Below are positions 3,103-21,390 of a stretch of DNA of 30,379 bases, piece after piece. The position numbers and the translations under genes are program-made. This DNA is from a virus, in the IMG/VR virus record IMGVR_UViG_3300042861_000924, positions 1 through 30,379 of that record. The stretch is one strand, 5' to 3'. Positions within the stretch are counted from its first letter, which is position 1; every line of letters starts with the position of its first letter. The notes below the pieces were generated by a model that saw nothing but the letters and a program-made list of their open reading frames with translations, did no database searches and was not told where the DNA came from.

Positions 3103-3124
3103 TCGTATCATCGTTTTTGTTATG

Positions 3125-3157
3125 AACCTCAACTTAACGGTTGGGGTTTTTTATTTT
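3125..3157 (+). terminator. intrinsic terminator
   Basis: A 9-bp stem AACCTCAAC / GTTGGGGTT (3125-3133 with 3140-3148, one G-U pair) closes a six-base loop and runs into a T-tract (TTTTTTATTTTT). It starts 22 bases after the stop of the 2512 gene. Confidence 0.9.
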
Positions 3158-3178: not shown

Positions 3179-3235
3179 TGTCATTACCAAAATTGTAAAT
3201 ATTTATTAATAAATAAACAAATAAAAAAAACAAAA
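3179..3235 (+). promoter_or_regulatory. candidate promoter/leader of the MPLNVD cassette
   Basis: This is the only long gap upstream of the cassette and follows the terminator, so a promoter is expected here. It contains TGTCATTACC at 3179-3188, nearly repeated as TGACATTACC at 5466-5475 after the second terminator. A purely A/T leader follows (AATAAACAAATAAAAAAAA, from 3212), which recurs before the 4561 gene. No clear -35/-10 pair or Bacteroidota-type TAnnTTTG is visible, so the exact promoter is not assigned. Confidence 0.3.
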
Positions 3236-3961
3236 ATGCCTTTAAACGTAGATCAAATTTCAGCGTCATCAGTACTTGTTGATGGGGTTGAAATCAAAAA
3301 CAAACCAAAAGACCCAAGAGATTATATCTTAAGTAAAGAAGATTTTGAAACAGTTACTTACTCACTAGACAGTGGAGAATTTATATTAAATAACGACTAT
3401 TTTACATTTCCAGAAGACGAGCTTTATGTTTTAGCTGGAGTAGAAACCTATTTAAAATTCCAAGAAGCCCAAACTAGTATTGAACCATCAGTTCTTCAAA
3501 ATAAAAAAATTAATGTAACCTCGTCAATTGAAACTAATTTAAAGTTTTTAGAAGCGGTTGCTGTAAATTACAACTACAATAGTAAAACAGGCTTCCAACA
3601 ACAATTATTAGAACTAATAAATGATACAACTTATTTTGATGAGGGTGTATTGCAAACAAAGACTAATTTTACTGATAGACTTTTAGATAAAGGGATTGTT
3701 GAGTTTGGACAAATTGGTGGTGGTTCAAAATTAGTGTACAGCGAAATCCTAAAAAAAGCCATCGCAACAGTTCAGATGGTTATAAATAATATGCAGAACG
3801 GAAATTTAGAAAATTATGATTTATTAAAAAATCTTTTTGATACTATAATAGATAAAGGAATTGTTGTTAGAACATATAAAAACAATCTAATTATTTCAAG
3901 TGTTGAAAAATACTTACAGTTTTTAGATGCGGAAAATGCTGGTGGTGCAGTTTCAGCATAA
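3236..3961 (+). CDS. MPLNVD-tag structural protein with SSxExxLKFLEA repeats
   Basis: The protein has 241 residues. Residues 1-20 (MPLNVDQISASSVLVDGVEI) match the N-termini of the proteins at 4561 and 5022, suggesting a common anchor to one virion site. The rest contains a recurring motif: LAGVETYLKFQEA (66-78), SSIETNLKFLEA (96-107) and SSVEKYLQFLDA (221-232). A second element, RLLDKGIVEFG (148-158) and TIIDKGIVVRT (203-213), precedes or alternates with it. The same two elements occur in the next gene. No catalytic motif is visible. The family is not recognised; tail-fibre or decoration proteins with an exchangeable body are the likeliest role. The ATG follows an A-rich leader. Confidence 0.75.
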   Translation: MPLNVDQISASSVLVDGVEIKNKPKDPRDYILSKEDFETVTYSLDSGEFILNNDYFTFPEDELYVLAGVETYLKFQEAQTSIEPSVLQNKKINVTSSIETNLKFLEAVAVNYNYNSKTGFQQQLLELINDTTYFDEGVLQTKTNFTDRLLDKGIVEFGQIGGGSKLVYSEILKKAIATVQMVINNMQNGNLENYDLLKNLFDTIIDKGIVVRTYKNNLIISSVEKYLQFLDAENAGGAVSA

Positions 3962-3984
3962 AATTAAATAAAAAATTAAATAAA
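3961..3984 (+). repeat. perfect 12-bp tandem repeat
   Basis: AAATTAAATAAA occurs twice head to tail (3961-3972 and 3973-3984), immediately upstream of the 3992 start codon. It could arise by slippage in A/T-rich leader DNA. Confidence 0.8.
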
Positions 3985-3991
3985 AAAAATT

Positions 3992-4531
3992 ATGAAAGAT
4001 ATATTAAAGTATTTTATAAATTATTGTAAAAATTCGTCTGGACAATTTAGTGTTGAGACTATGGATAGATTATTAGATAAAGGGTTTGTTATAACAAATA
4101 GTGATAATGAATTTAAAAAACCAACAAAAAACCTTTATGTTTTAAGTAGTAATGAATCGTTCCAAAAATTTTTAGACGCAACACAAAATTTTAATGAAAG
4201 AACACAAGATAATGGATTTGAAAATAATCTAATCAAACTACAAACATTACTTGGAAATAATTACCAAACACTAGAACAAATTGGTTTAGTTGAATTAATA
4301 GACGGTAATTCTACTTTTATAAATTACCAAGAACTATTTACATTATTTAATGGTACGTTTCGCTCAATTGAAAGGGGTGTTGTTGTTAATTATGATGAAC
4401 AAAATAATAACATAATAATATCCTCTATTGAAACATTTTTGAAATACTATGAAGCGGTAACACCTACAATACCTTCTGGTTTAGAATATAGTATTCTTGG
4501 CGAACTTGGTGGTGGAGCACAACCAGCATAA
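3992..4531 (+). CDS. untagged paralogue with SSxExxLKFLEA repeats
   Basis: This 179-residue protein shares repeat elements with the gene before it: MDRLLDKGFVI (24-34), SSNESFQKFLDA (52-63), a degenerate ERGVVVNY (127-134) and SSIETFLKYYEA (144-155). It lacks the MPLNVD tag, starting instead MKDILKYFINYCK. It may act as a partner subunit of the tagged protein, or be a duplicate that lost the anchor. The C-terminus is Gly-rich (GELGGGAQPA), like the GGAVSA end of its neighbour. The start ATG has AAAAAAAATT in front and no Shine-Dalgarno. The family is unknown to me. Confidence 0.75.
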   Translation: MKDILKYFINYCKNSSGQFSVETMDRLLDKGFVITNSDNEFKKPTKNLYVLSSNESFQKFLDATQNFNERTQDNGFENNLIKLQTLLGNNYQTLEQIGLVELIDGNSTFINYQELFTLFNGTFRSIERGVVVNYDEQNNNIIISSIETFLKYYEAVTPTIPSGLEYSILGELGGGAQPA

Positions 4532-4560
4532 ATAAACAAATAAAAAAAAAACAAAAAATT

Positions 4561-5004
4561 ATGCCTTTAAATGTAGACCAAATCTCAACTGGAACGTTGA
4601 GAGTAAACGGAATTGAAATTGATAAAAACACAGCTCATTACGAATTGGACATTACGCAAACTAATGTGGTTACTGTAAATACAACAACTGGTATTATTGA
4701 TATTCTTGGTATGGGAACATCTGGTCTTTTAACACCAACACCGTCATTTGGTACTGTAGTTGATATTATAATTGACAATCCAGGTTTAAACCTAACGTTA
4801 GCCAATCGGGATAATGTATATGTACAATACTCTCTATATTATAACCGGGCTGTTGATGACAATGCAATTCCTTATTTAGTTTCAACAGGGTTTATTTCTC
4901 AAGGTTTAAATTTTGAATTATTTAACGCAAACCCAAATGTTGCCGACCCTAATAACTGGACTGGCGCGTTGTATGTGTATTTTGAATTATATACAATAAA
5001 TTAA
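4561..5004 (+). CDS. MPLNVD-tag structural protein, beta-rich body
   Basis: This 147-residue protein opens with MPLNVDQISTGTLRVNGIEI, the cassette's common tag. The body (from about residue 25) alternates hydrophobic and polar residues, typical of a beta-sandwich, and has no Cys or catalytic motif (for example GTVVDIIIDNPGLNLTLANR and TGALYVYFELYTIN at the end). The A-rich leader AATAAACAAATAAAAAAAA before it is nearly identical to that upstream of the 3236 gene, so leader plus tag have probably been duplicated together. A virion surface or fibre-associated role is inferred from tag sharing, not from a recognised family. Confidence 0.75.
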   Translation: MPLNVDQISTGTLRVNGIEIDKNTAHYELDITQTNVVTVNTTTGIIDILGMGTSGLLTPTPSFGTVVDIIIDNPGLNLTLANRDNVYVQYSLYYNRAVDDNAIPYLVSTGFISQGLNFELFNANPNVADPNNWTGALYVYFELYTIN

Positions 5005-5021
5005 TTTAAAAACTAAAAATT

Positions 5022-5405
5022 ATGCCTTTAAATGTAGATAAGATATCAACCGGGTCATTAAGTGTTAATGGAACGGATATAACCGGAAACGCACCATATA
5101 AAGTTTATACTGCTCTCGTATTAATGGGTTCCGGTGCAGTAGTCACACTTTTTGAAAATACATTAGGAGTAGCAATAACATGGACATCTGGCGGTGGAGA
5201 AATATCCACAGGAACTGTTTCTGGATTAATTGGTCAAAATAATGTTTATGTTCAAGTTAGTAGTAGTACTCCAAGTTCAGTACCTAAAATTGTAAGTGGA
5301 AATTTTACACCTTCTCCTTGGCGAGTTGTAATCCAACAAATAGACAACGCAGGAATTCCTGATCTTACACAACAAGTTTTTGTGGAAATAAGAGTATACG
5401 AATAA
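5022..5405 (+). CDS. MPLNVD-tag structural protein, second beta-rich body
   Basis: The protein has 127 residues. Its first 20 (MPLNVDKISTGSLSVNGTDI) match the shared tag at amino-acid level and largely at DNA level with the 4561 gene. The body is different in sequence but of the same beta-rich type (AVVTLFENTLGVAITWTSGG, VYVQVSSST, WRVVIQQID, VFVEIRVYE). The gene ends 13 bases before the second terminator, so it closes the cassette. The pattern of constant tag with varied body suggests alternative heads on a common attachment site. No specific family is recognised. Confidence 0.75.
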   Translation: MPLNVDKISTGSLSVNGTDITGNAPYKVYTALVLMGSGAVVTLFENTLGVAITWTSGGGEISTGTVSGLIGQNNVYVQVSSSTPSSVPKIVSGNFTPSPWRVVIQQIDNAGIPDLTQQVFVEIRVYE

Positions 5406-5418
5406 ATCTAATTTTAAC

Positions 5419-5450
5419 CCCCATTTCAAAAGAGTGGGGTTTTTTATTTA
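5419..5450 (+). terminator. intrinsic terminator
   Basis: An 8-bp stem CCCCATTT / GAGTGGGG (5419-5426 with 5432-5439, two G-U pairs) closes a five-base CAAAA loop and is followed by TTTTTTATTT. It separates the MPLNVD cassette from the homing endonuclease and glycan genes. Confidence 0.9.
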
Positions 5451-5491: not shown

Positions 5492-6406
5492 ATGGGTAAA
5501 AAAATTAATTTAAACGAAGATTTAGTAATTAAAGAATATTTGTCTGGTAAAAGTTCTTTAGTACTAGCAAAAGAATTTAATGTGTCAAAACAAAAAATTC
5601 TTGGAATCTTAAAAAAGAATGAAGTAACAAGAAAAAGAGATAGGTGTAAATCATTAGAAATTAAAGAAGTTAATGGAAAATTTACAACAACTAGGATTTG
5701 TCCAAATTGTAAAAAAGAAGTTGATGTAACAACAACACACCCAACAACAACCTGTAGAAATTATTTTAAAGTTATAAAAGATAATTCTGTATGTAAAAAA
5801 TGTTTGGGTGATGTTATGACCGGAAAAGGAAATCCTTTTTATGGTAAAAAACATTCAGACAAAACAAAAGAACAAATTTCTAAAAGTAGAGTAGGTAAAG
5901 CTGCTGGTGAAAATAATCCTATGTCAAATCCAGAACATAGGAAAAAAGTAGCGGATATGATTAGAAAAAAATGGAAAGATGGTGAAATGGAGCACGTTAG
6001 AAAAATTTTTTCTGAAACTATGAAAGAAACCAGAAGATTAGGAAAAATTAAATCTGTAATAAGATCTAAAACCGAAAAACAAATTATTAATGAAATAAAA
6101 AAATTAGGTTACGTTGTTAAACATTCCCATAAGGTTGATACAAAAATTTGTGATATATTTTTACCCCAATTTAATTTAATAATAGAATACAATGGTGACT
6201 ACTGGCATTGTAACCCAAATAAATACGATAAAGACTATTTTCACCAAGTAAAAGGTATGACAGCTGAAAAACTTTGGGAATATGATAAAAACAAAGTTGA
6301 CATAATAATAAATAATGGTTATAATTTAGAAGTGGTTTGGGAATCGGATTATAAATCGGACAAAACCATAATAAATAAACTAATTAAAAAATATGACACA
6401 AAATAA
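5492..6406 (+). CDS. homing endonuclease (NUMOD3 repeats, Vsr-like nuclease domain)
   Basis: The protein has 304 residues from the ATG at 5492; an in-frame TTG at 5465 is less likely. Domain order: an HTH-like N-terminus (about 10-40, EYLSGKSSLVLAKEFNVSKQ), a Cys cluster that may bind zinc (C70, C73, C88, C101, C104), two NUMOD3-type DNA-binding motifs (GKGNPFYGKKHSDKTKEQIS near 111-130 and NNPMSNPEHRKK near 141-152), and a nuclease domain (about 190-290). In the nuclease, E195, D221 (CDIFLPQFNLIIEYNGDYWH) and H239 are candidate active-site residues of the Vsr/PD-(D/E)xK type. Free-standing HEGs spread by cutting an allele that lacks them. It ends inside the next gene's first codons (overlap 6393-6406), so its target is probably the start of that glycosyltransferase gene. 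Confidence 0.85.
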   Translation: MGKKINLNEDLVIKEYLSGKSSLVLAKEFNVSKQKILGILKKNEVTRKRDRCKSLEIKEVNGKFTTTRICPNCKKEVDVTTTHPTTTCRNYFKVIKDNSVCKKCLGDVMTGKGNPFYGKKHSDKTKEQISKSRVGKAAGENNPMSNPEHRKKVADMIRKKWKDGEMEHVRKIFSETMKETRRLGKIKSVIRSKTEKQIINEIKKLGYVVKHSHKVDTKICDIFLPQFNLIIEYNGDYWHCNPNKYDKDYFHQVKGMTAEKLWEYDKNKVDIIINNGYNLEVVWESDYKSDKTIINKLIKKYDTK

Positions 6407-7640
6407 CCCCTTGAATGGTCGTGAGAGAATCAGAGTATTGGTTCTCCCAAGTGACCAGTCGGGGGTTGGCTGAGGTAAATTCCGTTCAGTTGACCCCCAC
6501 GTTAAACTCCAAAATATGTATCCAGACGATTTTCACGTAGATATTGAGTATAACCCAAATATAAATGATTTAAATTTCTGGAAAAAATATCAGATTGTAC
6601 ATTTTCATAGAAGTATTGGGCAAGACTATGACAGAAGTGCTGAGTTTATAAAACAATTACGTTCTATGGGTATTGTTGTTATTGGTGATATTGACGATTA
6701 TTGGTTACCAACAAAAGAACACCCAATACATCAGTTGATTGTTCAAAACAAAATGCACGAAAAAATTATTGCAAATCTAAAAGTTGCTGATTATGTTATT
6801 ACAACAACCGAAATCTTTGCAAATGAAATTAGGAAATTTAATAAGAATGTAATTGTATTACCAAATGCAATAGACCCTATTGATCCACAATTTAATGAAC
6901 CAACATTGTCTTCAGATAAAGTTAGAGTTGGTTGGCTTGGCGGGTCTTCTCACTTACACGATTTAAAATTACTTAATGGTATGGTTTCAAAATTGTCACC
7001 AATACAAGATAAGTTACAATATTATGTTTGTGGGTTTGATATTCGTGGGTCTATTACAGAAATTAACCAACAAACTGGTGAAAAAACACAAAGACCAATT
7101 AAACCAGAAGAAACTGTTTGGGTTAAATACGAACAAATTTTTACAGACGATTATAAAATTATCACACCAAAATATAAAACCTATTTGGAAACATTTACAG
7201 AAAATGATTACCCTGGTGTTGAAAACGAAAACTATGTAAGGGTATGGACAAGACCTGTAACAACGTACGCAAAAAACTATTCTAAGTTTGATATTTCATT
7301 AGCTCCAATTAAAAATCACATCTTTAACAGAATGAAATCACAATTAAAAGTTATTGAAGCTGGTTTCTATAAAAAAGCTTTAATCGCATCAAATGTTGGT
7401 CCATATACAATTGATTTAAAACACGCACTTAAAAATGGTCAATTTACTGATGGTAATGCACTACTTGTAAACGAAACTAATAATCATAGTGATTGGGCTA
7501 AGAACATTAAAAAACTAGTTGAGAACCCAAATCTTATAACAGATCTTGGTGAAAGACTGTATGAATCAGTAAAAGACAAGTATGACTTGAATAACGTTAC
7601 CAACACAAGGGCAGAATTTTACAAATCTTTAATTAAATAA
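6393..7640 (+). CDS. GT-B glycosyltransferase with in-frame TGA at codon 27
   Basis: From the ATG at 6393 the frame runs to 7640 (416 codons with the stop) with one internal TGA at 6471-6473. Codons 12-26 (RIRVLVLPSDQSGVG) look like the first strand and loop of a GT-B fold. Codons 28-41 (GKFRSVDPHVKLQN) continue the same protein directly into the ATG at 6516, so both sides of the TGA are coding in one frame. Further motifs, counted from 6516: GDIDDYW (57-63), RVGWLGGSSHLHDL (137-150) and an EX7E-like segment KSQLKVIEAGFYKKALIAS (274-292). If translation starts only at 6516 the protein has 374 residues and lacks the start of the N-terminal Rossmann domain. The first 120 bases use codons rare elsewhere here (TCG, GGG, GGC, CTC, CCC). 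The TGA could be read through, hopped, or be a real nonsense mutation. Confidence 0.75.
6416..6498 (+). other. paired RNA hairpins around the in-frame TGA (candidate recoding element)
   Basis: Hairpin 1: outer pairs 6416-6422 with 6451-6457, an internal loop, then nine pairs 6425-6433 with 6438-6446 closing an AGTA loop. Three bases later, hairpin 2 has 14 consecutive pairs, GGGGGTTGGCTGAG (6461-6474) with GTT-start strand 6485-6498 ending GACCCCC; four pairs are G-U. TGA 6471-6473 pairs fully with TCA 6486-6488. AACCCC at 6405-6410 could alternatively pair with GGGGTT 6462-6467, which would open hairpin 2. All pairs were checked base by base by eye; folding energies were not computed. Function is inferred. 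Confidence 0.6.
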
Positions 7641-7642
7641 AA

Positions 7643-8359
7643 ATGATAAACATACCTATTACAAAAATTTTATTTTTAGACATTGAAACTGTTGGTGGTT
7701 GTCCGGATTTTGAATCTTGTGAAAGATTTAGTCCACAGATTGCCGAACAATTTCACAAATATTTTGATTGGTTTTTAAAAAGATTTCCTGAAGATGAGGC
7801 ATTAAGTCCTCGTACCGAACTTAAAGATTTTATGTTTAAAAAACGAGCGGCACTTGTTCCGGAATTTGCAAAAATTGTTTGTGTGTCTGTAGCATTTGTT
7901 TTAGATAACGGTGAAACAAAAAAACAATCTTTTTATGGTGAAGACGAAAAAACTTTATTAAAAGAGGTTAGAGTTCTTTTGGATCGTTGTGAAAAACTTG
8001 GGTTCTATCTTTGTGGACACAATCTAAAAAACTTTGATATTCCGATGCTCGCAAAAAGAATGATTATAAATGGGATTCGTCCATCTAAAATTCTTCCATC
8101 TTATGACACAAAACCTTGGGAAATAAAAGCGATTGACACAAAAGAAATTTGGCAATATGGTTCTTATACGTCAATTGGGTCATTAGATTTATTATGTTCT
8201 TGTTTAGATATACCAACACCAAAAGATGGTGAGATTACCGGAGCAAATGTACATAAAGCATACTGGGAAGAACAAAAAATAAAAGAAATTGCAGAATACT
8301 GTGAAAAGGATGTCAATGTATTAATTGATGTCATAATGAAATTAAAAAGTTTGGAATGA
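7643..8359 (+). CDS. DEDD-family 3'-5' exonuclease
   Basis: This 238-residue protein matches the RNase H-fold exonuclease family found as proofreading domains of family B polymerases (PolB_2-like). Exo I is FLDIETVGG with D13 and E15; Exo II is GHNLKNFDIP (N127, D132); Exo III is YCEKDV with Y219 and D223, making it the DEDDy subtype. It stands alone, with no polymerase domain. It would remove 3' nucleotides from DNA or RNA using two metal ions, probably for proofreading, repair or recombination, or nucleotide recycling. It starts two bases after the glycosyltransferase stop and overlaps the dUTPase start as ATGA. Its TGA stop is followed at once by TAG. Confidence 0.85.
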   Translation: MINIPITKILFLDIETVGGCPDFESCERFSPQIAEQFHKYFDWFLKRFPEDEALSPRTELKDFMFKKRAALVPEFAKIVCVSVAFVLDNGETKKQSFYGEDEKTLLKEVRVLLDRCEKLGFYLCGHNLKNFDIPMLAKRMIINGIRPSKILPSYDTKPWEIKAIDTKEIWQYGSYTSIGSLDLLCSCLDIPTPKDGEITGANVHKAYWEEQKIKEIAEYCEKDVNVLIDVIMKLKSLE

Positions 8360-8949
8360 TAGAAAATAATAATATAGAAAATGAAATTAAAAAATTGGTT
8401 GATGAATATGCTGACGACGATTCAACAATTGATTATGAAAAGTTAATTAATGATTTTGGAATTGATATTGAAGGAATTGAAAGGGAATTAACAAATTATT
8501 TACCAAGATTAACTTTTAATTTCTCCACATCACATCCAGACGTTGTTGAACCAAATTACGCATACCCAACGGACTCTGGTTTTGATTTACATTCCGTTGA
8601 AGAAATTAGTATTGGGGGTTTTGGTAGAGCATTAGTACCAACTGGACTACATCTAGATATTCCAGAAAATTATGAAATCCAAGTAAGATCAAAGAGTGGT
8701 CTGGCATTAAAACAAGGACTTATGGTTTTAAATTCTCCTGGAACTGTGGATCAAGGATACACCGGTGAAATTAAAGTTATAATTTTTAACACAACAAAAG
8801 AAACTGTGAAAATAGAAAAAAGACAAAAAATTGCGCAAGCCGTATTATGTCCAGTTGTATGTGGAAAATGGTTGGACTTTAAGATGGTTGATGACATTGA
8901 AGATAAAGATAGGTCTGATAATGGTTTTGGTAGTACTGGTTTAGTTTAA
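8356..8949 (+). CDS. dut: dUTPase (dUTP diphosphatase), trimeric type
   Basis: All five motifs of trimeric dUTPases are present in order: I, DSGFDLHS (73-80); II, RSKSGLA (111-117); III, GTVDQGYTGE (129-138) with the catalytic D132; IV, RQKIAQ (156-161); V, DRSDNGFGSTG (185-195). The enzyme converts dUTP to dUMP and diphosphate, keeping uracil out of phage DNA and supplying dUMP for dTMP synthesis. Length is 197 residues instead of the usual 140-150 because of an acidic N-terminal extension of about 50 residues of unknown role. It overlaps the exonuclease upstream (ATGA) and the next gene downstream (TAATG), so the three are probably translated together. Confidence 0.95.
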   Translation: MIENNNIENEIKKLVDEYADDDSTIDYEKLINDFGIDIEGIERELTNYLPRLTFNFSTSHPDVVEPNYAYPTDSGFDLHSVEEISIGGFGRALVPTGLHLDIPENYEIQVRSKSGLALKQGLMVLNSPGTVDQGYTGEIKVIIFNTTKETVKIEKRQKIAQAVLCPVVCGKWLDFKMVDDIEDKDRSDNGFGSTGLV

Positions 8950-9623
8950 TGAAAAATTTAATAATCTCACCAACGGGAGAAAAAACATTATTAAAAAACT
9001 GGGTTGGTGAAAATAGTAATTTTGATATACACCTTTTATATTATTCTGAAAATGAAAAAGAATATGAAAAATTACTAAATCAAGGATACAAAACCCAAAA
9101 AGTAAAAGGTGAGAAATGGTTTTGTTTAAAAGAATATATAACTCAAAATCCAAATTTACTGGAAGAGTATGACACATTTTGGTTTCCAGATGACGATCTT
9201 TTTATTGAAACCGATTCAATAAACAAACTTTTTGATATTCATAACTCATATAATTTATTTTTGTCTCAACCGGCAGCAATAGGTTATACGTCACACGAAA
9301 TAACAAAACCACAAAATTGTAAGTTACGGTATACAAGTTTTGTTGAGATTATGTGTCCTATGATGTCAAAAGAAACTTTAAAACTTCTTTTGGAATCTTT
9401 TGATATATCTAAATCAGGTTGGGGACTAGACATTATGTGGCCAAAGATATTAAATTACCCAAAAGATAAAATTGCAATTATTGATGAAGTTGTCATAATA
9501 CATACAAAACCAATTGGTCAAAATTATGAAAATAGATTTAATGTTTCACCTATGGATGAATTTAATATGATTAGAAATAGATATTCTGTTAATTTTAATT
9601 TTACTGAACACTCAAGAATTTAA
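8949..9623 (+). CDS. DUF707-like glycosyltransferase
   Basis: This 224-residue protein has an alpha/beta N-terminus (NLIISPTGEKTLLKNW) and the acidic signature FWFPDDDLF at 77-85, which looks like the metal- and nucleotide-sugar-binding DxD of GT-A enzymes. A later SGWGLDIMWP (156-165) resembles the GxGxD/W segment of the DUF707 family of putative glycosyltransferases. It lacks a signal peptide or membrane segment, so it should act in the cytoplasm. It begins a run of five consecutive glycosyltransferase genes (8949-12647). Sugar and acceptor cannot be read from the sequence. Confidence 0.65.
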   Translation: MKNLIISPTGEKTLLKNWVGENSNFDIHLLYYSENEKEYEKLLNQGYKTQKVKGEKWFCLKEYITQNPNLLEEYDTFWFPDDDLFIETDSINKLFDIHNSYNLFLSQPAAIGYTSHEITKPQNCKLRYTSFVEIMCPMMSKETLKLLLESFDISKSGWGLDIMWPKILNYPKDKIAIIDEVVIIHTKPIGQNYENRFNVSPMDEFNMIRNRYSVNFNFTEHSRI

Positions 9624-9628
9624 TAAGT

Positions 9629-10501
9629 ATGAAAAAAATAGATGTATGTATAAATGTTTATGGAAAACCATATCAAACAATATTAACATTAAAGTCCCTT
9701 TTAAAACACTCAAGTCAACATATAGATAAGATTTATTTTATTGAGGAGAATCAACAACGACCTGGTTATGACTTTGATTTTATATCAAAAAATGTTGGGT
9801 ATGATAATCTGATTAGATATATACCACAACACTACCTATGGGTAAACCCAACAAACAAGGAACAAGTTTTTTCTGACGAAAATTATAGATTGTCTTGTAG
9901 GTATGAATATGGTTTATCAAATTCGGATAAATCACATATGTTATTAATTCATAATGATGTCTTATTTCATTCTGATATTGTTGGTAAATTTTTGGAAGAA
10001 GATGAAAATTATTTTGGTATTGGTCTTGTTGGTCAATGTTGGAATTGTCCTTTAAATTATGATAATATTTGTTCTGGAGAAAGACTAGAAGAAAATTTAA
10101 AAAATCAAAATTTTCATTTCATATTTGGTGTTGTAAACAAATATCCAAACACAAGACTATATGGTAAAAGAAAAAAAATAAATGTTGATAAACCACTTCC
10201 ATTATCTGAATGTAGAATAAATGAATGGTGTATGTTTATTAATTTAAATTTTTATAGAGATGAGGTTTTAAATAAAAAAGAGGTTGTACCAATTGGTGGT
10301 TATTTTCTAGGTGACATTGGTGATTTGTGGTTTAGACAAATGGTTGATAAAGGATATAAATTTAAACATTTTAATATAGACAATTATTACACACATGCTT
10401 ATTTTTCTAACAACGCAAACGGTCATTCAGCACTTCTAGACCAAAATAAATATGATTTAGAAGAAAGTTTGGCAAAAAAATATTTAGAAGAAAATTTTTA
10501 A
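9629..10501 (+). CDS. GT2-like glycosyltransferase
   Basis: This 290-residue protein starts with a GT-A type strand and loop (KKIDVCINVYGKPYQTILTL) and has the candidate DxD equivalent LLIHNDVLF (HND at 108-110). The same HND variant is in the N-terminal domain of the next protein, so the two genes are probably related. A later GGYFLGDIGDLWFRQM supplies a second acidic site where GT2 enzymes place the catalytic base. No membrane segment is seen. It most likely transfers one sugar in the pathway encoded by the island; the donor is unknown. Confidence 0.7.
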   Translation: MKKIDVCINVYGKPYQTILTLKSLLKHSSQHIDKIYFIEENQQRPGYDFDFISKNVGYDNLIRYIPQHYLWVNPTNKEQVFSDENYRLSCRYEYGLSNSDKSHMLLIHNDVLFHSDIVGKFLEEDENYFGIGLVGQCWNCPLNYDNICSGERLEENLKNQNFHFIFGVVNKYPNTRLYGKRKKINVDKPLPLSECRINEWCMFINLNFYRDEVLNKKEVVPIGGYFLGDIGDLWFRQMVDKGYKFKHFNIDNYYTHAYFSNNANGHSALLDQNKYDLEESLAKKYLEENF

Positions 10502-10502
10502 T

Positions 10503-12008
10503 ATGATTACAGTAATATACTCAACACATAGAACAAAAGAATACAATGATAAGTTTAACGACCATCTTATATTAACTTCTGGACTTCAAGAAGTTCAAGT
10601 TCTACCTTATGAAAATCATAATGAATATTCATTAGCTGAACTTTATAATAAGGGAATTAAAGATTCTAAATATGATATTGTTATATGTTGTCATAATGAT
10701 ATTAAATTAGAAAAAAACTGGGGAAAAAAATTATTAGAAGATTTTTCCAATAACCCAGAATTTGGTCTTATAGGAAAAGCAGGTTCTTGTTATTTTCCAG
10801 AGTCAGGTGTTTATTGGGAAAAAATGAATCAGACAATGGTAGGACAAGTATATCACCATCCACCAAATCATAATAAATGGTTAAGTAGATATTCACCAAA
10901 ATTACCAATCCTTATTCCAGTTGTAACGCTTGATGGTTTATTTTTGTCGTTTGATAAGACAAAGATTAAACATAAGTTTGACGAATCATATGGAAAATTC
11001 CATTTTTATGACCACGGGTTTTGCGTACCAAATTATTTAGATGGAGTAAAACTTGGCGTTACCTCATCTTTTGAAATTACACACGAATCAATTGGACAAC
11101 CAAATGAGGAGTTTTATCAATCAAAAGAAATGTTCTTACAAAAGTGGGGTGATAAACTACCACTTGATTTAAAACCAGAAAACCTTTTTATTCCAGAAAT
11201 TAAAAGACAGACATTTAAAAAATTTGGGAAGGTTGCAATTATAATACCAACAAAAGGAAAAATTGAAATTCTTTTTGATTGTATTAAGTCATATTTTGAC
11301 AATTGTGATATGAACATTTTTGAAATCTTTATTGCTGACACTGGGTCAACAGATGAAGAAAAAACACAAATTAAAAATTTTATATCCGAATATAATAACA
11401 TTAATCTTATTGAATTTGATTATTATAATTTTGCAAAGATTAATAATGAGGTTGTAAAAAATTATCTAGATAATAAACACGAATTTATCTTGTTTTCAAA
11501 TAACGATATTAAAATTATGAATGATATTTTATCTGGAATGTTACAAATTTTTAAAGAAAACCCAAGAACAGGTACAGTTGGTTGCAGATTACATTTTGAA
11601 GACAATACAATACAGCACGATGGAATATTTGTTGCAAAATCAAAAACTAACAATCTAACCTTAAGCCACATAAATTTTAAAAATTACTACAACTACTTCA
11701 ACAACACAAAAGAAGTTATTGGTAATACTGGTGGTTTAATGTTAATACGAAAAAATGTTTTTGAAAATATTGGACTTTTTAGTGAAAATTATTTATCTTG
11801 TTTTGAAGATGTTGATTTAAATATAAAGTTAGTTTCTATTAATTTAAAAAATTATATCTGTGGTAAGTGTGTCGCATATCATTATGAATCACAAACAAGA
11901 AAAGAGGATCCAGAAAATTTGGACAAACAAAAAATAGATTATAGTAAATTAGTACCAGTTATAAGTAATCACTGGGAAAAAATAAAAGAAAAAGTTTTTT
12001 TAATTTAA
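10503..12008 (+). CDS. two-domain GT2 glycosyltransferase
   Basis: The protein has 501 residues with two GT-A domains. The first (about 1-220) has a start like MITVIYSTHR and the site ICCHNDI (HND 64-66). The second (about 243-450) is a clearer GT2: VAIIIPTKGK (244-253), ADTGSTDE (278-285), SNND (332-335) as DxD, and FEDVDLNIKL (434-443) as acceptor-binding/base region, like rhamnosyl- or GlcNAc-transferases of O-antigen pathways. Fused domains often add two successive sugars or make a disaccharide repeat. Its gene follows the previous one by a single base. Confidence 0.8.
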   Translation: MITVIYSTHRTKEYNDKFNDHLILTSGLQEVQVLPYENHNEYSLAELYNKGIKDSKYDIVICCHNDIKLEKNWGKKLLEDFSNNPEFGLIGKAGSCYFPESGVYWEKMNQTMVGQVYHHPPNHNKWLSRYSPKLPILIPVVTLDGLFLSFDKTKIKHKFDESYGKFHFYDHGFCVPNYLDGVKLGVTSSFEITHESIGQPNEEFYQSKEMFLQKWGDKLPLDLKPENLFIPEIKRQTFKKFGKVAIIIPTKGKIEILFDCIKSYFDNCDMNIFEIFIADTGSTDEEKTQIKNFISEYNNINLIEFDYYNFAKINNEVVKNYLDNKHEFILFSNNDIKIMNDILSGMLQIFKENPRTGTVGCRLHFEDNTIQHDGIFVAKSKTNNLTLSHINFKNYYNYFNNTKEVIGNTGGLMLIRKNVFENIGLFSENYLSCFEDVDLNIKLVSINLKNYICGKCVAYHYESQTRKEDPENLDKQKIDYSKLVPVISNHWEKIKEKVFLI

Positions 12009-12011
12009 ATT

Positions 12012-12647
12012 ATGTTTAATGTAATAACACCTTTAGCTAGATATGAAAATATCGAAAAACTAAAATTAAATTTAGTTGGTCAGAATATAATCTGGCATGT
12101 TGTAACGGACGATGACCGTAAAGAAAAGGTAAATTTTACTGAATCCTGGATAAACCATTATGTCTGCCCAAACAATAGTGTAGACTTTTGGGCCAGATCA
12201 AATTTTTCAATAAATTGGCTTTTAGAAACTCAAGACATAAAAGACGAAGAATATTATTGTATTTTAAACGATGACGACGGGTATAGTGAAAACTTCTTTG
12301 AAGAATTGAAAACTGAAATAAATCTATCTAAAGAAAATAATTTACCGACTGATTTAGTCATTGTCTCAATGAAACGTGGAGATAACATCCCGCCTAATTT
12401 ACCACCAGTTAAGAGACACCCAACAAATACATTATTTGCCAGACAAGAAAATATGTTAGTAGGTGGTGTTGGTGTGGAACAATTTTTTATGAAAGGAAAA
12501 CATATAAAAAATCATAGATTACCCTTAACTGTGTATGGAGACGGAGAACTAATATCACAATTAGTAAAAATTTATCCAACACTATATGTCCCTAATTTAT
12601 TTGTTAAGTTTAATTTTTTTGAACCTGGTAGATGGGAAAATTTGTAA
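12012..12647 (+). CDS. GT2-like glycosyltransferase, compact
   Basis: This 211-residue protein has the GT-A hallmarks FNVITPLARYENI (first strand) and ILNDDDGYSENFF (84-96) with NDDD as the probable metal-binding site. The C-terminal third (RQENMLVGGVGVEQFF, YGDGELI) fits the acceptor side of GT-A folds. It is shorter than most GT2 enzymes and has no membrane helix. It ends 13 bases before the epimerase-type gene. Family assignment rests on the acidic motif and its neighbours, so the exact class is uncertain. Confidence 0.65.
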   Translation: MFNVITPLARYENIEKLKLNLVGQNIIWHVVTDDDRKEKVNFTESWINHYVCPNNSVDFWARSNFSINWLLETQDIKDEEYYCILNDDDGYSENFFEELKTEINLSKENNLPTDLVIVSMKRGDNIPPNLPPVKRHPTNTLFARQENMLVGGVGVEQFFMKGKHIKNHRLPLTVYGDGELISQLVKIYPTLYVPNLFVKFNFFEPGRWENL

Positions 12648-12660
12648 ATTATTTAACTTT

Positions 12661-13614
12661 ATGAAAATATTAATTACTGGAATTCTTGGACAAGATGGGC
12701 AAATTCTTACAGAACTATTAAAAAAAAATCATCAAATTTTTGGTGTAACTCATTTAGAAACATCAGAAAATAGGATTAAAAATTTTGAAATTAAACATAA
12801 TATAAAAATATATAAAAAAGATTTAATTCATATAAAAAATTGTATGGATTTAATTGAAGATGTGCAACCAGATGTTATTGTAAATTTTGCTGGGGTAACA
12901 AATGTTTTTAATCCTTGGGACAATCAATTAGAATTAGTAAATCAAAATCTAATAATTCCAGTAAACATATTAAATACAATTAAAGAAATAAATCAAAACA
13001 TATTTTTTTTCCAGGCATCATCTTCGCTTATGTTTGGTAATTCGGGAACAAATGAGATTTGTGAAAAAACTAATTTGAGTCCTATTTACCCATATGGTAT
13101 TGCAAAAGCATTTGTTCATAACTTAATTGATGAATATAGAATAAATTTAAACTTACAGTGTTCGTCTGGTATTTTCTTTAATCACGATTCTTTTTTTAGA
13201 AAAAATAAATTTCTTACAAAAAAATTGGCATCTTTTGTTGCGAACATTGAGAAGACCGACCCAAAAAAAATTTCATTAGGAAATTTAGATGGTTTTATTG
13301 ATATTAGTCATGCATATGATTTTATGAGTGGTGTTAAATTAATAATTGAAAATAAAATGAATGAAAATTATGTATTTAGTAGTGGTAAATTAGTTAAAGT
13401 TTATGATTTGGTTAAATTATTTTTTGAATTTAAAAATCTTGATATTGAAAATTACGTAGAATATGATAAAACGCTAGATAGGAAAAATCAAACACAAATT
13501 TATGGTAATAATAATAAGTTGAGAAGTTTGGGGTGGGAGCCAAAATTTGATTTAAAATTATTAGTTAAAGACTTAATAGAAATGGAGGTAAGATATGAAA
13601 ATATTATTTGTTAA
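12661..13614 (+). CDS. GMD-like extended SDR lacking the catalytic Glu
   Basis: From the ATG at 12661 the protein has 317 residues and begins with the NAD(P) site ITGILGQDG (5-13). An upstream in-frame ATG at 12586 would overlap the previous gene by 62 bases and add residues before the Rossmann strand, so it is rejected. The sequence parallels the clear Gmd at 17666 throughout: QASSSLMFG (118-126), PYGIAK with Y145 and K149, FNHDS (173-177), and LGNLDGFIDISHAYDFM against LGNLDATRDWGHAKDYV. The catalytic Glu of GDP-mannose dehydratases (SSSE in the paralogue) is Leu123 here, so 4,6-dehydration is unlikely. A 4-keto reductase or epimerase acting on the Gmd product is a better guess. The conserved PRRG after the NHES motif is also lost. 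Confidence 0.8.
   Translation: MKILITGILGQDGQILTELLKKNHQIFGVTHLETSENRIKNFEIKHNIKIYKKDLIHIKNCMDLIEDVQPDVIVNFAGVTNVFNPWDNQLELVNQNLIIPVNILNTIKEINQNIFFFQASSSLMFGNSGTNEICEKTNLSPIYPYGIAKAFVHNLIDEYRINLNLQCSSGIFFNHDSFFRKNKFLTKKLASFVANIEKTDPKKISLGNLDGFIDISHAYDFMSGVKLIIENKMNENYVFSSGKLVKVYDLVKLFFEFKNLDIENYVEYDKTLDRKNQTQIYGNNNKLRSLGWEPKFDLKLLVKDLIEMEVRYENIIC
13584..13589 (+). promoter_or_regulatory. Shine-Dalgarno sequence GGAGGT
   Basis: GGAGGT lies five bases before the ATG at 13595, inside the end of the upstream gene. It is the only full Shine-Dalgarno match I noticed before a start in this window; other starts have A/T-rich leaders. It may be chance coding sequence (it encodes part of MEVR). Confidence 0.4.
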
Positions 13615-14512
13615 TCACAAACAAACAAAATGCGGTGTTTACCAATATGGTAAACGATTATACGAGATTTTAAAAAAATCAAAAACGTATCAAATAATGT
13701 ATTTTGAATTGGGGTCAAGTACAGAGTTAACTCAAGTGTTAGAAGAAACTAAACCTAATTTAATATTATACAATTGGCATGAATTAACAATGTCTTGGGT
13801 TAATCAAAAATTAACAAATGAATTATCAAAATATAAACAAATTTTTATATACCACGAAGCCGGATTTAATACCAATATGAAATATGATGGGTTAATTTAT
13901 ATTAACTTTTTTGAAGATGAAGATAAAAAAATTTTTACAATACCAAGACCCATTTATGAAAATAATTTTACAAAACAAAATAATGAAATTGTTACTTTTG
14001 GTAGTTTTGGTTTTGGGTTTCATAACAAGGGTTTTGAAAGGATTTGTCATTTAGTAAACTCAACGTTTGATACTGCAAAAATTAGGCTACACATACCAAA
14101 CTCACATTTTTGTGACTTTACAGGTAGTATATCTAATTCAGTAATTGACAATTGTAGAAAGATAGTAAAAAAAACAATTGATTTAGAAATAACAACTCAT
14201 TTTATGAGCGATTATGAAATTTTAGAGTTTTTAAATTCAAACGACGTAAATTTATTTTTATATGATCAAATGCCTGGTAGAGGTGTTTCATCATCAACAG
14301 ATTATGCTGTTAGTGTTGACACACCATTAGTTATTAACGATTCGGTAATGTTTAGACATATCACAGATAAAAAACCAGAAATATCAATTGACAATAATAA
14401 TCTAGAAACTATACTTTCACTAGGTTTAGAACCTATTCATTTTTTTAGAAAAGAATGGAGCAATGAAAACCTAATAAATAAATTCATTAAAATTATAGAA
14501 AAAATATGTTAG
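13595..14512 (+). CDS. GT-B glycosyltransferase (GT4-like)
   Basis: This 305-residue protein starts MKILFVNHKQTKCGVYQYGK, a typical first strand and Gly loop of GT-B enzymes. The linker-to-C-domain segment is VTFGSFGFGFHNKGFERI (133-150). The C-domain includes FLYDQMPGRGVSSSTDYAVS, where GT4 enzymes bind the nucleotide sugar and carry the E-x7-E region, although the Glu pair is not obvious. It overlaps the end of the SDR gene by 20 bases and the next gene by 7, so all are read as one unit. Donor and acceptor are unknown. Confidence 0.7.
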   Translation: MKILFVNHKQTKCGVYQYGKRLYEILKKSKTYQIMYFELGSSTELTQVLEETKPNLILYNWHELTMSWVNQKLTNELSKYKQIFIYHEAGFNTNMKYDGLIYINFFEDEDKKIFTIPRPIYENNFTKQNNEIVTFGSFGFGFHNKGFERICHLVNSTFDTAKIRLHIPNSHFCDFTGSISNSVIDNCRKIVKKTIDLEITTHFMSDYEILEFLNSNDVNLFLYDQMPGRGVSSSTDYAVSVDTPLVINDSVMFRHITDKKPEISIDNNNLETILSLGLEPIHFFRKEWSNENLINKFIKIIEKIC

Positions 14513-15729
14513 AGGAACTATTCAACTTGGGAGACTTATATGTTTCCGATTTTTTAAAAGAAGACGATAAACCAAGAGGTGGTAAAGTTGATTTAAAACT
14601 TATGTTAGAACACGAAACTGGTGCTGTAAGACTTGAGCAATGCGCACCATTAGACACTATGTACGGAAAATACTGGTATAGGTCTGGAATTAATAATACA
14701 ATGAAAAAAGAACTAAACGATATTGTTAATTCTATTTTAGAAAATTACAAACTACAAGATTCTGATTTATGGGTTGATATTGCTTGTAACGATGGTACAC
14801 TATTAAGTAATTTACCAAAAACATTAATTAGGGTTGGTATTGATCCCGTTGATAATACATTTAAAAACGAATCAGAAAAACACGCAAATCTAATAATCCA
14901 AGACTATTTTAGTTCAGATGTTTTTAAAAAATCTAAATATGGTAATATAAAAGCTAAAGTTATTACAACAATTGCAATGTTTTATGATTTAGATAAACCA
15001 AAAGATTTTATCAACGGTGTTTATGAAGTGTTAGATGATAATGGTTTGTGGGTTTTACAAATGTCTTACACGCCATTAATGATTGAGCAAATGGCTTTTG
15101 ATAATATCTGTCACGAACACATATATTATTACTCACTTTTTAACATTAAAAAAATATTTGAGGAGTGTGGTTTTGACATAATTGATACTCAATTAAACGA
15201 TGTTAATGGTGGATCTTTTAGAATTTATTGTATGAAAAAAACTGGCGATAAAACTAAATTTGGAACACAACCATATAGAGATGTCTGTAAATTTAGAGTT
15301 GAGTCATTGTTGGAATATGAAAAAAGTTTAAAATTGGATTCACCGATTACTTGGTTTAACTTTTTTAAAAGTATTAACGAGTTAAAAGAAAAAACGGTTT
15401 CTTTTATTAAAGAAGAAAAAAATAAAGGAAAAAAAATATGGGCTTATGGAGCGTCAACAAAAGGGAATACGTTGTTACAGTATTTTGGTTTAGACAATAC
15501 TTTAATTGATGGTATTGCAGAAAGAAGTCCTTATAAATTTGGTTTAAAAACCGTTGGTACAAATATCCCAATTTTTTCTGAAGAGGAAATGAGAAAAGAA
15601 AACCCTGATTACTTGTTGGTATTACCTTGGCATTTTATAAATGAGTTTGTTGAACGTGAATCTGAATTTTTAAACTCTGGTGGGAAATTTATTGTTCCGT
15701 GCCCTAAATTTGAAATAATTGGTAAATGA
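14506..15729 (+). CDS. SAM-dependent sugar C-methyltransferase
   Basis: The 407 residues follow the three-part layout of NDP-sugar C-methyltransferases such as TylC3. An N-terminal part has LEQCAPLDTMYGKYWYRSG (43-61); the family's zinc-binding cysteines are mostly missing. The SAM-binding domain has WVDIACNDGTLL (89-100) and the family signature ICHEHIYYYSL (201-211). A C-terminal Rossmann-like domain begins KIWAYGASTKGNTLLQYFG (310-328). These enzymes methylate C3 of 4-keto-6-deoxy sugars, the kind of product Gmd makes, so a branched deoxysugar is plausible. Loss of zinc ligands may reflect divergence. It overlaps both neighbours (7 bases upstream, ATGA downstream). Confidence 0.8.
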   Translation: MLEELFNLGDLYVSDFLKEDDKPRGGKVDLKLMLEHETGAVRLEQCAPLDTMYGKYWYRSGINNTMKKELNDIVNSILENYKLQDSDLWVDIACNDGTLLSNLPKTLIRVGIDPVDNTFKNESEKHANLIIQDYFSSDVFKKSKYGNIKAKVITTIAMFYDLDKPKDFINGVYEVLDDNGLWVLQMSYTPLMIEQMAFDNICHEHIYYYSLFNIKKIFEECGFDIIDTQLNDVNGGSFRIYCMKKTGDKTKFGTQPYRDVCKFRVESLLEYEKSLKLDSPITWFNFFKSINELKEKTVSFIKEEKNKGKKIWAYGASTKGNTLLQYFGLDNTLIDGIAERSPYKFGLKTVGTNIPIFSEEEMRKENPDYLLVLPWHFINEFVERESEFLNSGGKFIVPCPKFEIIGK

Positions 15730-16361
15730 AATATTACGCAGAATTTGAAACGGACAAAATTATAAGAGAAACTTATTTTCCGGATTTAACCTTTAAAGGT
15801 ACTATTGTTGAGGTCGGTGGAGCAACACCTGAATTTTTGTCAATGTCAAAACATTTTAAAGATAATGGATGGCGAGCGGTGGTTATAGAACCAAACCCAA
15901 AGTTTGTTGAGGAACATAAAAACGTAAATAACGAAGTTTATCAATATGCGTGTTCAGATGAAAACAAATTTGGTGAGTTTACAATTGTTGAGCAACAGGT
16001 TAATGCTTACGGAGGAGTTGTAACTGATCACTCGTTTTCATCAATTGCAATAAAGGAAAGTTATTTGACTAAAACAAACTTATCACTTTCAGACTTAAAA
16101 ACAAAAAAAATTCAAGTAGAAATTAGAAGACTAGACTCTATACTCCAGGATTTAAATATTGACACCGTAGATATTTTATCTATAGATGTTGAAGGTTGGG
16201 AATTAGACGTTATGTTAGGTCTTGATACTGAAAAAATAAATTGTAAACTGATTGTTGTTGAAAATTTTTTAAATGATATAGAATATAATAACTATTTTGA
16301 AAAAATTGGTTATGTCTTGAAACAAGAAATAAACTATAACCAAATATATGTAAAAAAATGA
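15726..16361 (+). CDS. FkbM-family methyltransferase 1
   Basis: This 211-residue SAM methyltransferase has motif I TIVEVGGATPEF (26-37), the acidic post-II segment VIEPNP (53-58), and the FkbM signature LSIDVEGWELDVM (151-163). FkbM enzymes O-methylate hydroxyl groups on sugars or polyketides. It is the first of three consecutive FkbM genes; pairwise identity is low by eye, so they are not recent duplicates. ATGA overlaps join it to both neighbours. Exact acceptor is unknown. Confidence 0.85.
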   Translation: MKYYAEFETDKIIRETYFPDLTFKGTIVEVGGATPEFLSMSKHFKDNGWRAVVIEPNPKFVEEHKNVNNEVYQYACSDENKFGEFTIVEQQVNAYGGVVTDHSFSSIAIKESYLTKTNLSLSDLKTKKIQVEIRRLDSILQDLNIDTVDILSIDVEGWELDVMLGLDTEKINCKLIVVENFLNDIEYNNYFEKIGYVLKQEINYNQIYVKK

Positions 16362-17056
16362 AAAAAGAGATTATACATTTAAACAAAAAAATAACAATAA
16401 ACCTACACGAAAATGAAATTGTATCGTCGTCTATAAATGATAGTAGTAAGTTTTTTGAAGTGGAATTTTTAGAATTTGTAAGAAATAATTTTCAAAAACA
16501 AAAAACGATTATTGATATTGGCGCTAACATTGGCAACCATTCTTTATTTTTTTCAGAATTTTTAGAGTATGATGAAATAATTTGTTTTGAGCCCTTTGAA
16601 AAAAATGTTGAGTTACTTAAGCTTAATTTAAATGGTAAAAATTGTAAAATAATGGATTTTGCGCTTAGTGATTCGGAATCTGAAAAAATATTGTATAATA
16701 GTCAGTCAAATAATTTTGGTGGATTTTCATTACATTCTTATGATGGGAGTAAAGGAGAAAATAAGTCATTTATTGTTAAAGACAAAGTAACTACTAAAAC
16801 TTTAGATAGTTTAAACCTTACTAATGTTACTATGATTAAAATAGATGTTGAGGGTCATGAGAACGAGGTACTAAATGGTGGTGTAAAAACAATAAAAAGA
16901 AACTCTCCAGTAATTTTTATTGAAAATTTAAGTAGTGGGTATCCTCATTTATTTAAGGATTCACAATTTGATGAATTTTTTGAAAAAATAAACTACACTA
17001 GAATTCATAAAAACATTGAGGGGAGTTTTATGGATTTATGGGTACCAAAAAAATAA
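16358..17056 (+). CDS. FkbM-family methyltransferase 2
   Basis: The protein has 232 residues. Motif I is IIDIGANIGNHSLFF (51-65), the SAM ribose-binding acid is in CFEPF (76-80), and the FkbM signature is IKIDVEGHENEVLNG (160-174). It is the most canonical FkbM of the three. An N-terminal part (1-48) of beta strands probably binds the acceptor. It would O-methylate a sugar of the glycan encoded by its neighbours. The TAA is followed by seven bases before the next ATG. Confidence 0.88.
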   Translation: MKKEIIHLNKKITINLHENEIVSSSINDSSKFFEVEFLEFVRNNFQKQKTIIDIGANIGNHSLFFSEFLEYDEIICFEPFEKNVELLKLNLNGKNCKIMDFALSDSESEKILYNSQSNNFGGFSLHSYDGSKGENKSFIVKDKVTTKTLDSLNLTNVTMIKIDVEGHENEVLNGGVKTIKRNSPVIFIENLSSGYPHLFKDSQFDEFFEKINYTRIHKNIEGSFMDLWVPKK

Positions 17057-17062
17057 AAAAAG

Positions 17063-17662
17063 ATGTATTATTCACAATCTGATCAAGACAAATGGGTTAC
17101 AGAATTTTACCAAAACAAAAGAAATGGTTTCTTTGTTGAGGTGGGAGCTTATGACGGTATACAAACTAGTAATACTTTTTTCTTTGAACAAAGTTTAGGT
17201 TGGTCTGGAATCTGTATTGAAGCAAACCCAAACGTTTTTAATAGACTAATTAAAAATAGAAAGTCAATTAATTTAAACTATGCAGTCACTGACTATGAAG
17301 GTGAGTGTTTTTTTAGCAATGACAGAATTTCAAATACTGGGAGTAAAGTAAAATGTTTACCATTAGAAAAAATCTTAAAGGAAAATGACTGTCCAAGAAA
17401 AATTGATTATTTGTCAATGGATATTGAGGGGCATGAATACATAGTATTAAAAAATTTTAATTTTGATGAGTTTGAAATTGGTCTTATGACAATTGAGCAC
17501 AATCTTTATTGTGACGGAAACGAAAGAAAAGATTTAATCTATAACTTACTAACAAGTAAAGGTTTTACGAGAGTTGTAGATAACGCTGTCTGTTTAGATA
17601 AGAACCCATTATACTATAATAAACCTTACGAAGACTGGTACGTTAATAACAAACTATTATAA
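17063..17662 (+). CDS. FkbM-family methyltransferase 3
   Basis: This 199-residue protein opens MYYSQSDQDKWVTEFYQNKR, a start common in FkbM proteins annexed to glycan loci. Motif I is FFVEVGAYDGIQTSN (23-37), followed by CIEANP (51-56) and the signature LSMDIEGHEYIVL (117-129). The C-terminus contains an aromatic-rich tail (YYNKPYEDWYVNN). As the third methyltransferase in a row next to Gmd, it probably modifies another hydroxyl of the same glycan. It starts seven bases after the previous gene and ends three bases before the gmd ATG. Confidence 0.87.
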   Translation: MYYSQSDQDKWVTEFYQNKRNGFFVEVGAYDGIQTSNTFFFEQSLGWSGICIEANPNVFNRLIKNRKSINLNYAVTDYEGECFFSNDRISNTGSKVKCLPLEKILKENDCPRKIDYLSMDIEGHEYIVLKNFNFDEFEIGLMTIEHNLYCDGNERKDLIYNLLTSKGFTRVVDNAVCLDKNPLYYNKPYEDWYVNNKLL

Positions 17663-17665
17663 AAA

Positions 17666-18652
17666 ATGAAAAAAGCAGTAATAACAGGAATAAATGGTCA
17701 AGACGGTTCATATTTGGCAGAATTTCTTTTAGAGAAAGGTTATGATGTTCACGGTATAATGAAGCGTAACTCTGTATCGGAAACACAAGCAATTAGAGTT
17801 GAGCATATTAGTGATAAAATAACATTACATTACGGAGATATAACAGATTTATCTTCTTTAATACGTATTTTTAGTGAAGTACAACCTAATGAAATTTATA
17901 ATCTTGCTGCACAATCTCACGTTAGAATTTCGTTTGACGAACCAATATATACATCACAAGCAACCGGTGTTGGTGCTTTAAATGTTATTGAGGCGGTAAG
18001 ACTTTTAAAACTTAATTCTAAAATTTACCAAGCTTCTTCTTCTGAAATGTTTGGAAACAATATAGATGACGATGGTTACCAAAGAGAAACAACTAGAATG
18101 ATACCCGTGTCACCATATGGTGTTTCTAAATTATTTGCCCATAATATGGGTATAAATTATAGACATTCATATAATATGTTTATAAGTAATGGAATTTTAT
18201 TTAACCACGAATCCCCAAGAAGGGGTACAAACTTTGTAACAAATAAAGTTTGTAAAGAAGCGGTTAAAATAAAACTAGGTTTAACAGATAAATTAAAATT
18301 AGGAAATTTAGACGCAACAAGGGACTGGGGACACGCTAAAGATTATGTTGAGGCAATGTGGTTAATACTACAACAAGAAAGTCCAGAAGATTTTGTGTGC
18401 TCAACAGGAGTCTCACATTCCGTGAAGGATTTAGTGATTTATGTTTTTGAAAAATTAGAACTAAATTGGTCTAATTATATATCAACAGATAAAAAATACT
18501 TGAGACCAGAAGAATTAAACGATTTAAAAGGAGACTCAACAAAATTAAGGTCTTTAACAGGATGGAAACCAAAATATACTTTTGAGACTATGTTAGACGA
18601 AATGGTAGAATATTGGTTAGACTATTTTAATAAACAAACAAATAACAAATAA
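17666..18652 (+). CDS. gmd: GDP-mannose 4,6-dehydratase
   Basis: This 328-residue extended SDR has all key features of Gmd: NADP site ITGINGQDGSYL (6-17), YQASSSEMFG (121-130) with the Ser/Glu pair S125 and E127, PYGVSK with Y151 and K155, NHESPRRGTNFVT (180-192), and LGNLDATRDWGHAKDYV. It converts GDP-D-mannose to GDP-4-keto-6-deoxy-D-mannose, the precursor of GDP-fucose, GDP-rhamnose and related sugars. The usual Thr in the catalytic triad is Ser here, a conservative change. No fucose synthase (WcaG) is recognisable nearby; the diverged paralogue at 12661 is the only candidate for the next step. Its TAA overlaps the phoH ATG. Confidence 0.95.
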   Translation: MKKAVITGINGQDGSYLAEFLLEKGYDVHGIMKRNSVSETQAIRVEHISDKITLHYGDITDLSSLIRIFSEVQPNEIYNLAAQSHVRISFDEPIYTSQATGVGALNVIEAVRLLKLNSKIYQASSSEMFGNNIDDDGYQRETTRMIPVSPYGVSKLFAHNMGINYRHSYNMFISNGILFNHESPRRGTNFVTNKVCKEAVKIKLGLTDKLKLGNLDATRDWGHAKDYVEAMWLILQQESPEDFVCSTGVSHSVKDLVIYVFEKLELNWSNYISTDKKYLRPEELNDLKGDSTKLRSLTGWKPKYTFETMLDEMVEYWLDYFNKQTNNK

Positions 18653-20318: not shown

Positions 20319-20325
20319 AATTATT

Positions 20326-21384: not shown

Positions 21385-21390
21385 TTAGAT

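Follow-up and report, generated by a model that had tools for sequence, protein, structure and literature searches.

A cassette of small genes with a common N-terminal tag

The 30,379-base sequence analyzed here (the window) is an IMG/VR virus record, in which a cassette of four genes lies on the plus strand between two intrinsic terminator-like hairpins (3124-3149 and 5419-5439), flanked on either side as originally predicted. The first gene is preceded by a promoter-like element, TGTAAATATTTATTAATAAAT (3194-3214, 42 nt upstream of the start), which was missed in the earlier reading of the window, and by an A-rich leader (3215-3235). Its product, protein 1 (3236-3961, 241 aa), consists of a tag, MPLNVDQISASSVLVDGVEIK (3236-3298), and a repeat body with the motifs ..KGIV.. 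and SS(V/I)E.YLKFLEA. Protein 2 (3992-4531, 179 aa) lacks the tag. The second tagged gene, which follows an A-rich leader at 4528-4560, encodes protein 3 (4561-5004, 147 aa), composed of the tag MPLNVDQISTGTLRVNGIEIDK (4561-4626) and a body, termed here body A, that is predicted to form a beta-sandwich (residues 24-147). The third, again with an A-rich leader (4989-5021), encodes protein 4 (5022-5405, 127 aa), in which the tag MPLNVDKISTGSLSVNGTDITGN (5022-5090) is followed by body B, a predicted tailspike-tip/TNF-like beta-sandwich (residues 26-126). None of the four proteins was recognized above threshold by Pfam or PHROGs.

The tag follows the pattern MPLNVDxIS..(V/L)xV(D/N)G, and its conserved part, ca. 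20 aa long, has no match among Pfam or PHROG families. The corresponding 27-nt pattern occurs in the window only at 3236, 4561 and 5022, and was absent from 100 shuffled versions. The three tags are identical to each other in 13/20, 12/20 and 15/20 positions, compared with 6/19 for the best other pair of N-termini among all genes in the window, which confirms the N-terminus reported previously for three of the four proteins. The BLASTP alignment of protein 3 with protein 4 is confined to residues 1-26 (62%, E 4e-8), hence their bodies are unrelated. Proteins 1 and 2, on the other hand, have homologous bodies (33%, E 9e-7), so the cassette comprises three types of body and not four.

In the window, conservation of the tag at the DNA level, proposed at the same time, found no support as a sign of recombination. 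We tested for selection on the DNA of the window tags and saw none: the pairs share 6, 7 and 6 identical codons versus 6.1, 4.8 and 6.5 expected, i.e. the tags diverge at synonymous sites as predicted from codon usage while the peptide is conserved, and the shared residues together with codon usage account for an ordinary likeness of the DNA. A repeat of 92 nt comprising leader and tag can be delineated at 3203-3294, 4528-4619 and 4989-5080. The A-rich leader was considered as a part of a recombination cassette and rejected, since such leaders are found upstream of many genes in the window phage. In Flavobacterium translation is promoted by adenines located upstream of the start (PMC6847099); thus the repeated leader, regarded earlier as a special feature, is ordinary for Bacteroidetes.

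The remainder of the window contains several other genes of note. Directly past the cassette terminator there is a homing-endonuclease-like gene (5492-6406) with a NUMOD3 motif and a match to the PHROG homing endonuclease, followed by a long series of glycosyltransferase, sugar-epimerase-like and methyltransferase-like genes (6516-22197), among which PhoH and dUTPase are also found. Upstream of the cassette, the protein encoded at 1860-2510 begins with MKLYNSFKNLILEIAS, a start similar to a capsid-targeting sequence, and continues with a WYL-like domain that remains below threshold (Pfam E 0.001). No family was matched by two large, repeat-like proteins rich in Cys, encoded at 142-1554 and 28483-30294; the element AGTAAATACTTAT is located 64 nt upstream of the latter.

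Distribution of the tag and of the bodies among relatives

Across related viruses (contigs and genomes are designated here by L numbers), tags of the form MPL(N/K/S)(V/I)D are N-terminal to at least seven types of body: those of the window (A, B and the body of protein 1), UspA1/beta-roll adhesin repeats, and three others of 121, 561 and 94 aa. The repeat proteins belong to relatives and not to the window, and two of them score above the Pfam gathering thresholds for both UspA1_rep and LbR, namely the protein at 2648-3760 in L004 (42.1 bits against a cut-off of 27 and 38.7 against 30, respectively) and a tagged protein in L030. In L039 two similar tagged repeat proteins are adjacent, and a spacer module, TISGxTFYGDGSGLxGVG, is common to two kinds of protein. 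We also looked for the tag on clearly non-virion proteins and saw no such case; all tagged proteins found were either fiber/adhesin-like or unknown small proteins.

Body A was detected in 18 viral loci by a search with protein 3. It follows MPLNVD in L007 and L004 and MPLKVD in L056, while in L008-L024 it is 54-68% conserved (68% identical in L008/L009) behind an unrelated tag of ca. 56-60 aa that starts with MDILN(F/W), and that is cut off in L018. Several neighboring genes in these MDILN contigs also start with MDILN yet bear other bodies, including collagen repeats. The AlphaFold model of body A, built with relatives, is a beta-sandwich (pLDDT 74.6), for which Foldseek retrieved nothing from the PDB at E < 0.001 and VIA gave only weak matches spread over several unrelated beta-sandwich folds (best Z 5.2); hence we claim no fold for it. 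The body-A gene of L006 (3228-3320, minus strand) is disrupted by the loss of 47 nt right after the tag, whereas it is intact in the near-identical L004/L005.

Body B is distributed more widely: a profile search yielded 74 distinct proteins, whose N-termini fall into 32 clusters. The homolog in L033 is 79% identical to body B and has an unrelated N-terminus (MATFIKAGFWEQL...). Flavobacterium phage elemo, whose host is Flavobacterium sp. BAL314, is represented in this set by its isolates, in which the gene adjacent to the body-B gene has the same N-terminus (MAKIKTY/MARIKTY) and a different body. Flavobacterium genomes L119, L120 and L122, apparently at prophage loci, contain tandem genes with yet another common N-terminus, body B among them. 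The AlphaFold model of body B, also built with relatives, is a beta-sandwich as well (pLDDT 79.5). Its top VIA match is WSSV VP37 (Z 8.7), and many of the other top matches are spike tips or trimeric TNF-like knobs, e.g. the C-terminus of the phiAB6 tailspike (Z 7.6, 3.0 A over 91 residues), the Pam1 tailspike (6.6), the PRD1 spike protein P5 (6.4) and the LKA1 tailspike (6.0). These values are middling and Foldseek found no PDB fold at E < 0.001, so the common beta-sandwich may reflect a mere general arrangement; likewise, sequence comparison with solved structures gave no relative with a convincing E-value. The predicted viral structures matched in BFVD include a structural protein of Flavobacterium phage lotta8-1, the best of them being a tail fiber protein of Olleya phage Harreka_1 (E 9e-7).

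For protein 1 a single-sequence search retrieved no viral relative, and the 'phages' collection contained no match to protein 1, protein 3 or the MDILN relative of protein 3. L041 contains a tandem pair of relatives of proteins 1 and 2, after which a body-B protein and collagen-repeat proteins come next. That row of genes (L041, 5322-11691) has Cys-rich N-termini on the protein-1 body, body B and the collagen repeats, and is possibly another set with a shared anchor.

The tag is therefore present on unrelated bodies, and the same bodies are present behind unrelated N-termini. The original prediction of a common anchor carrying alternative surface domains is borne out insofar as the bodies vary, recur behind other tags and look like surface or fiber domains; the anchoring itself would be a matter of function, to which we return below.

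Upstream element, genomic setting and exchange of tags

In 11/11 cassettes examined, including that of the window (3194), the element TGTAAATA(C/T)TTAT is found 42-45 nt upstream of the first tagged gene. A broader version, TATTTATW, clusters upstream of genes in tag-bearing phages; e.g. 7/8 matches in L004 fall within 5% of the sequence. Such a distribution is as expected for a candidate late promoter; late promoters of T4 have the form TATAAATA. The long form of the element has one match in a 98.7-kb contig and one in an 83-kb contig, each at the cassette. In a 257-kb contig it has three matches: the known cassette, an ORF-internal position with two mismatches, and a gene that had been missed by the tag search. 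This gene turned out to be tagged (MPLKID): its 94-aa product begins with MPLKIDKLIATEVFVDGNEV, and it is located two genes upstream of the terminase large subunit (gp17). Its discovery through the upstream element is a successful blind prediction.

A T4-like structural setting is seen in several relatives, each of which has the conserved upstream element. In L004, L026, L027, L030 and L031 the tagged genes are directly upstream of the T4-like terminase large subunit (gp17), and in L038/L039 they are located between the tail sheath and the tail tube. The nearest isolates of the tag-bearing contigs, according to both sheath and terminase, include Flavobacterium phage immuto. The window itself yielded no structural marker that would place its own phage, and the T4-likeness is known from the contigs of relatives: of its baseplate-like proteins, those at 23324 and 25466 had no match in other tag-bearing contigs, in a comparison that had no positive control, and the former had no match among known phages. 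The host of the window phage is probably Flavobacterium or a relative.

Evolution by recombination within the tag, as suggested in the original prediction, is indicated in relatives but left no trace in the tag DNA of the window. L030 and L032 are 99.4% identical over 4,840 nt, with more than 1.1 kb of the body and 260 nt downstream of it identical. In a comparison by 60-nt blocks every full block past the first is the same, the tags agree in 51/60 nt, there is no homology upstream of about -93, and the change occurs ca. 30-43 nt into the tag. At least one crossover thus appears to have taken place inside a tag, in metagenomic contigs where chimeric assembly at a repeated tag is possible. Bodies A and B are neighbors in L056, where the DNA of their tags is identical (60/60 nt, with a probability of ca. 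1e-6 from codon usage) and the sequences then diverge immediately; L061 is similar, with tag DNA identical for ca. 33 nt. In the MDILN lineage several tracts of high identity start 3-14 nt before a tag, and others start at untagged genes. We also tested concerted evolution of tags within phages as a general process and rejected it: the likeness of tags on different bodies within one phage is 0.696, versus 0.679 for tags on one type of body compared between phages. In general, belonging to one phage does not make tags more similar, which suggests that their exchange is occasional.

A putative docking peptide and competing explanations

We consider the cassette likely to be a late operon for structural proteins of a tailed phage, in which small surface proteins share a docking peptide and carry exchangeable host-facing bodies. 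The operon would encode virion surface proteins such as fibers, knobs or spikes, of which the first ca. 20 residues, MPL(N/K)(V/I)D-x-(I/L)...V-(N/D)-G, would serve to attach all of them at one kind of site on the particle. The remainder would be the host-facing part, often a beta domain of the trimeric type. New bodies would be acquired by fusion to the tag, sometimes via a crossover within the conserved stretch of promoter, leader and tag, and the displayed proteins would help the virus to bind its host. Points that weigh against this reading are the absence of the tag from protein 2 and the low confidence with which the tag is modeled (pLDDT <50 in its first half).

Short docking peptides of this kind have been described for receptor-binding proteins (RBPs) of K1-5/K1E/SP6 (MAKLTKP, 7 aa, and MIQRLGSSLVK, 11 aa), KP32 (29 aa) and KP34 (MALxxLV) (PMC6872550). 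As in those phages, a short conserved N-terminal peptide specific to a group of phages is found here on variable proteins, and exchange occurs at the junction of peptide and body with the peptide kept. The K1-5, KP32 and KP34 systems have two RBPs with different peptides, docked to an adapter or to a T4gp10-like domain (PMC6872550), whereas here one tag is present on up to four different small proteins per phage, the dock is putative and the hosts are probably Bacteroidetes. In PhiK64-1/RaK2, Menlow and CBA120-type phages several RBPs per virion reuse a few conserved N-terminal elements, as here, but they are large depolymerase tailspikes, some with T4gp10-like branching domains (PMC6872550), none of which was seen in our case. 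Tail fibers of T7 and K1F also combine an anchor with an exchangeable C-terminal part, but the T7 gp17-type anchor has ca. 140 aa, and our tag, with its ca. 20 aa and no family match, cannot be assigned to that type. The MPL-tagged repeat proteins of relatives resemble the heads of trimeric adhesins of the UspA1/YadA type, from which they differ in the absence of the autotransporter anchor. Near-identical N-termini on non-homologous C-terminal domains are well documented for phage RBPs (Smug et al., PMC10684548); the kind of arrangement is thus known and the variant new. That survey covers many protein classes, and its passages searched here contained no description of the MPL family. The most economical reading of these comparisons is that the tag would work as a short docking peptide in the manner of K1-5/SP6, KP32 and KP34.

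Four other explanations have to be weighed against docking. It is unlikely that the tag serves instead as a structural cap, as a starter of folding or trimerization, or as an aid to translation. In the models residues 13-15 and 18-20, right in front of the body, form short beta-strands, as would suit a cap, and A-rich leaders and the context of the start are important in Flavobacterium (PMC6847099); however, the same bodies dispense with the MPL tag behind other N-termini, and its six initial residues are near-constant over unrelated types of body.

Quite unlikely is a capsid-targeting role, in which the proteins would be sent inside the head for ejection, like T4 internal proteins with their CTS. 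T4-like phages do package tagged internal proteins, and the phages studied here also have a CTS-like family of tags (L007, L056 and L070). However, the T4 tag ends in a prohead-protease site, (L/I)-x-E, no conserved copy of which is present in or after the 23 MPL tags listed, and the bodies are similar to adhesin repeats and fiber tips and unlike internal proteins.

It is very improbable that the three tagged genes arose by ordinary tandem duplication, with bodies diverged past recognition. The genes are indeed in tandem, proteins 1 and 2 are paralogs and the pair in L039 is of this sort, but bodies A and B are unrelated and have their close relatives behind unrelated tags in L008/L009 and L033, by which homologs this explanation appears largely refuted for them. 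Least credible is that the stretch of promoter, leader and tag is kept chiefly for its DNA, which would serve recombination of cassettes as a homology arm or a target, with the peptide incidental, as the identical tags in L056, the crossover in L032 and the homing-endonuclease-like gene next to the cassette might suggest, since the window tags vary synonymously and retain the peptide.

We propose only tentatively, and with some doubt, that the two to four surface proteins which one operon provides with the same docking peptide compete for equivalent sites. Each particle would then display a mixture of heads, the phage population would be heterogeneous in host binding, and heads could be gained or lost by fusion to the tag with the dock unaltered. 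The cassette offers a natural case of several heads on one putative dock, in which mixed display of RBPs on identical sites becomes testable. A published study of Flavobacterium phages (PMC7077304) yielded no virion proteomics; parts of the idea are testable in laboratory strains, because the body-B module occurs in isolated Flavobacterium phages. The motif MPL(N/K)(V/I)D...V(N/D)G together with the promoter-like element provides a short handle for finding likely surface proteins, useful because annotation of this group of phages is poor and family libraries do not recognize such proteins.

The CTS-like tag mentioned above, MKK(T/I)IRLTESDL.RI(V/I)KRVIKE, is a second common tag, carried by numerous small proteins whose bodies differ (L007: 2038, 3061, 5230, 5591 and 5843; L056: 602; L070: 981 and 1433). 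It often ends with I-K-E, similarly to the T4 prohead-protease site, and therefore these proteins may be packaged internal proteins.
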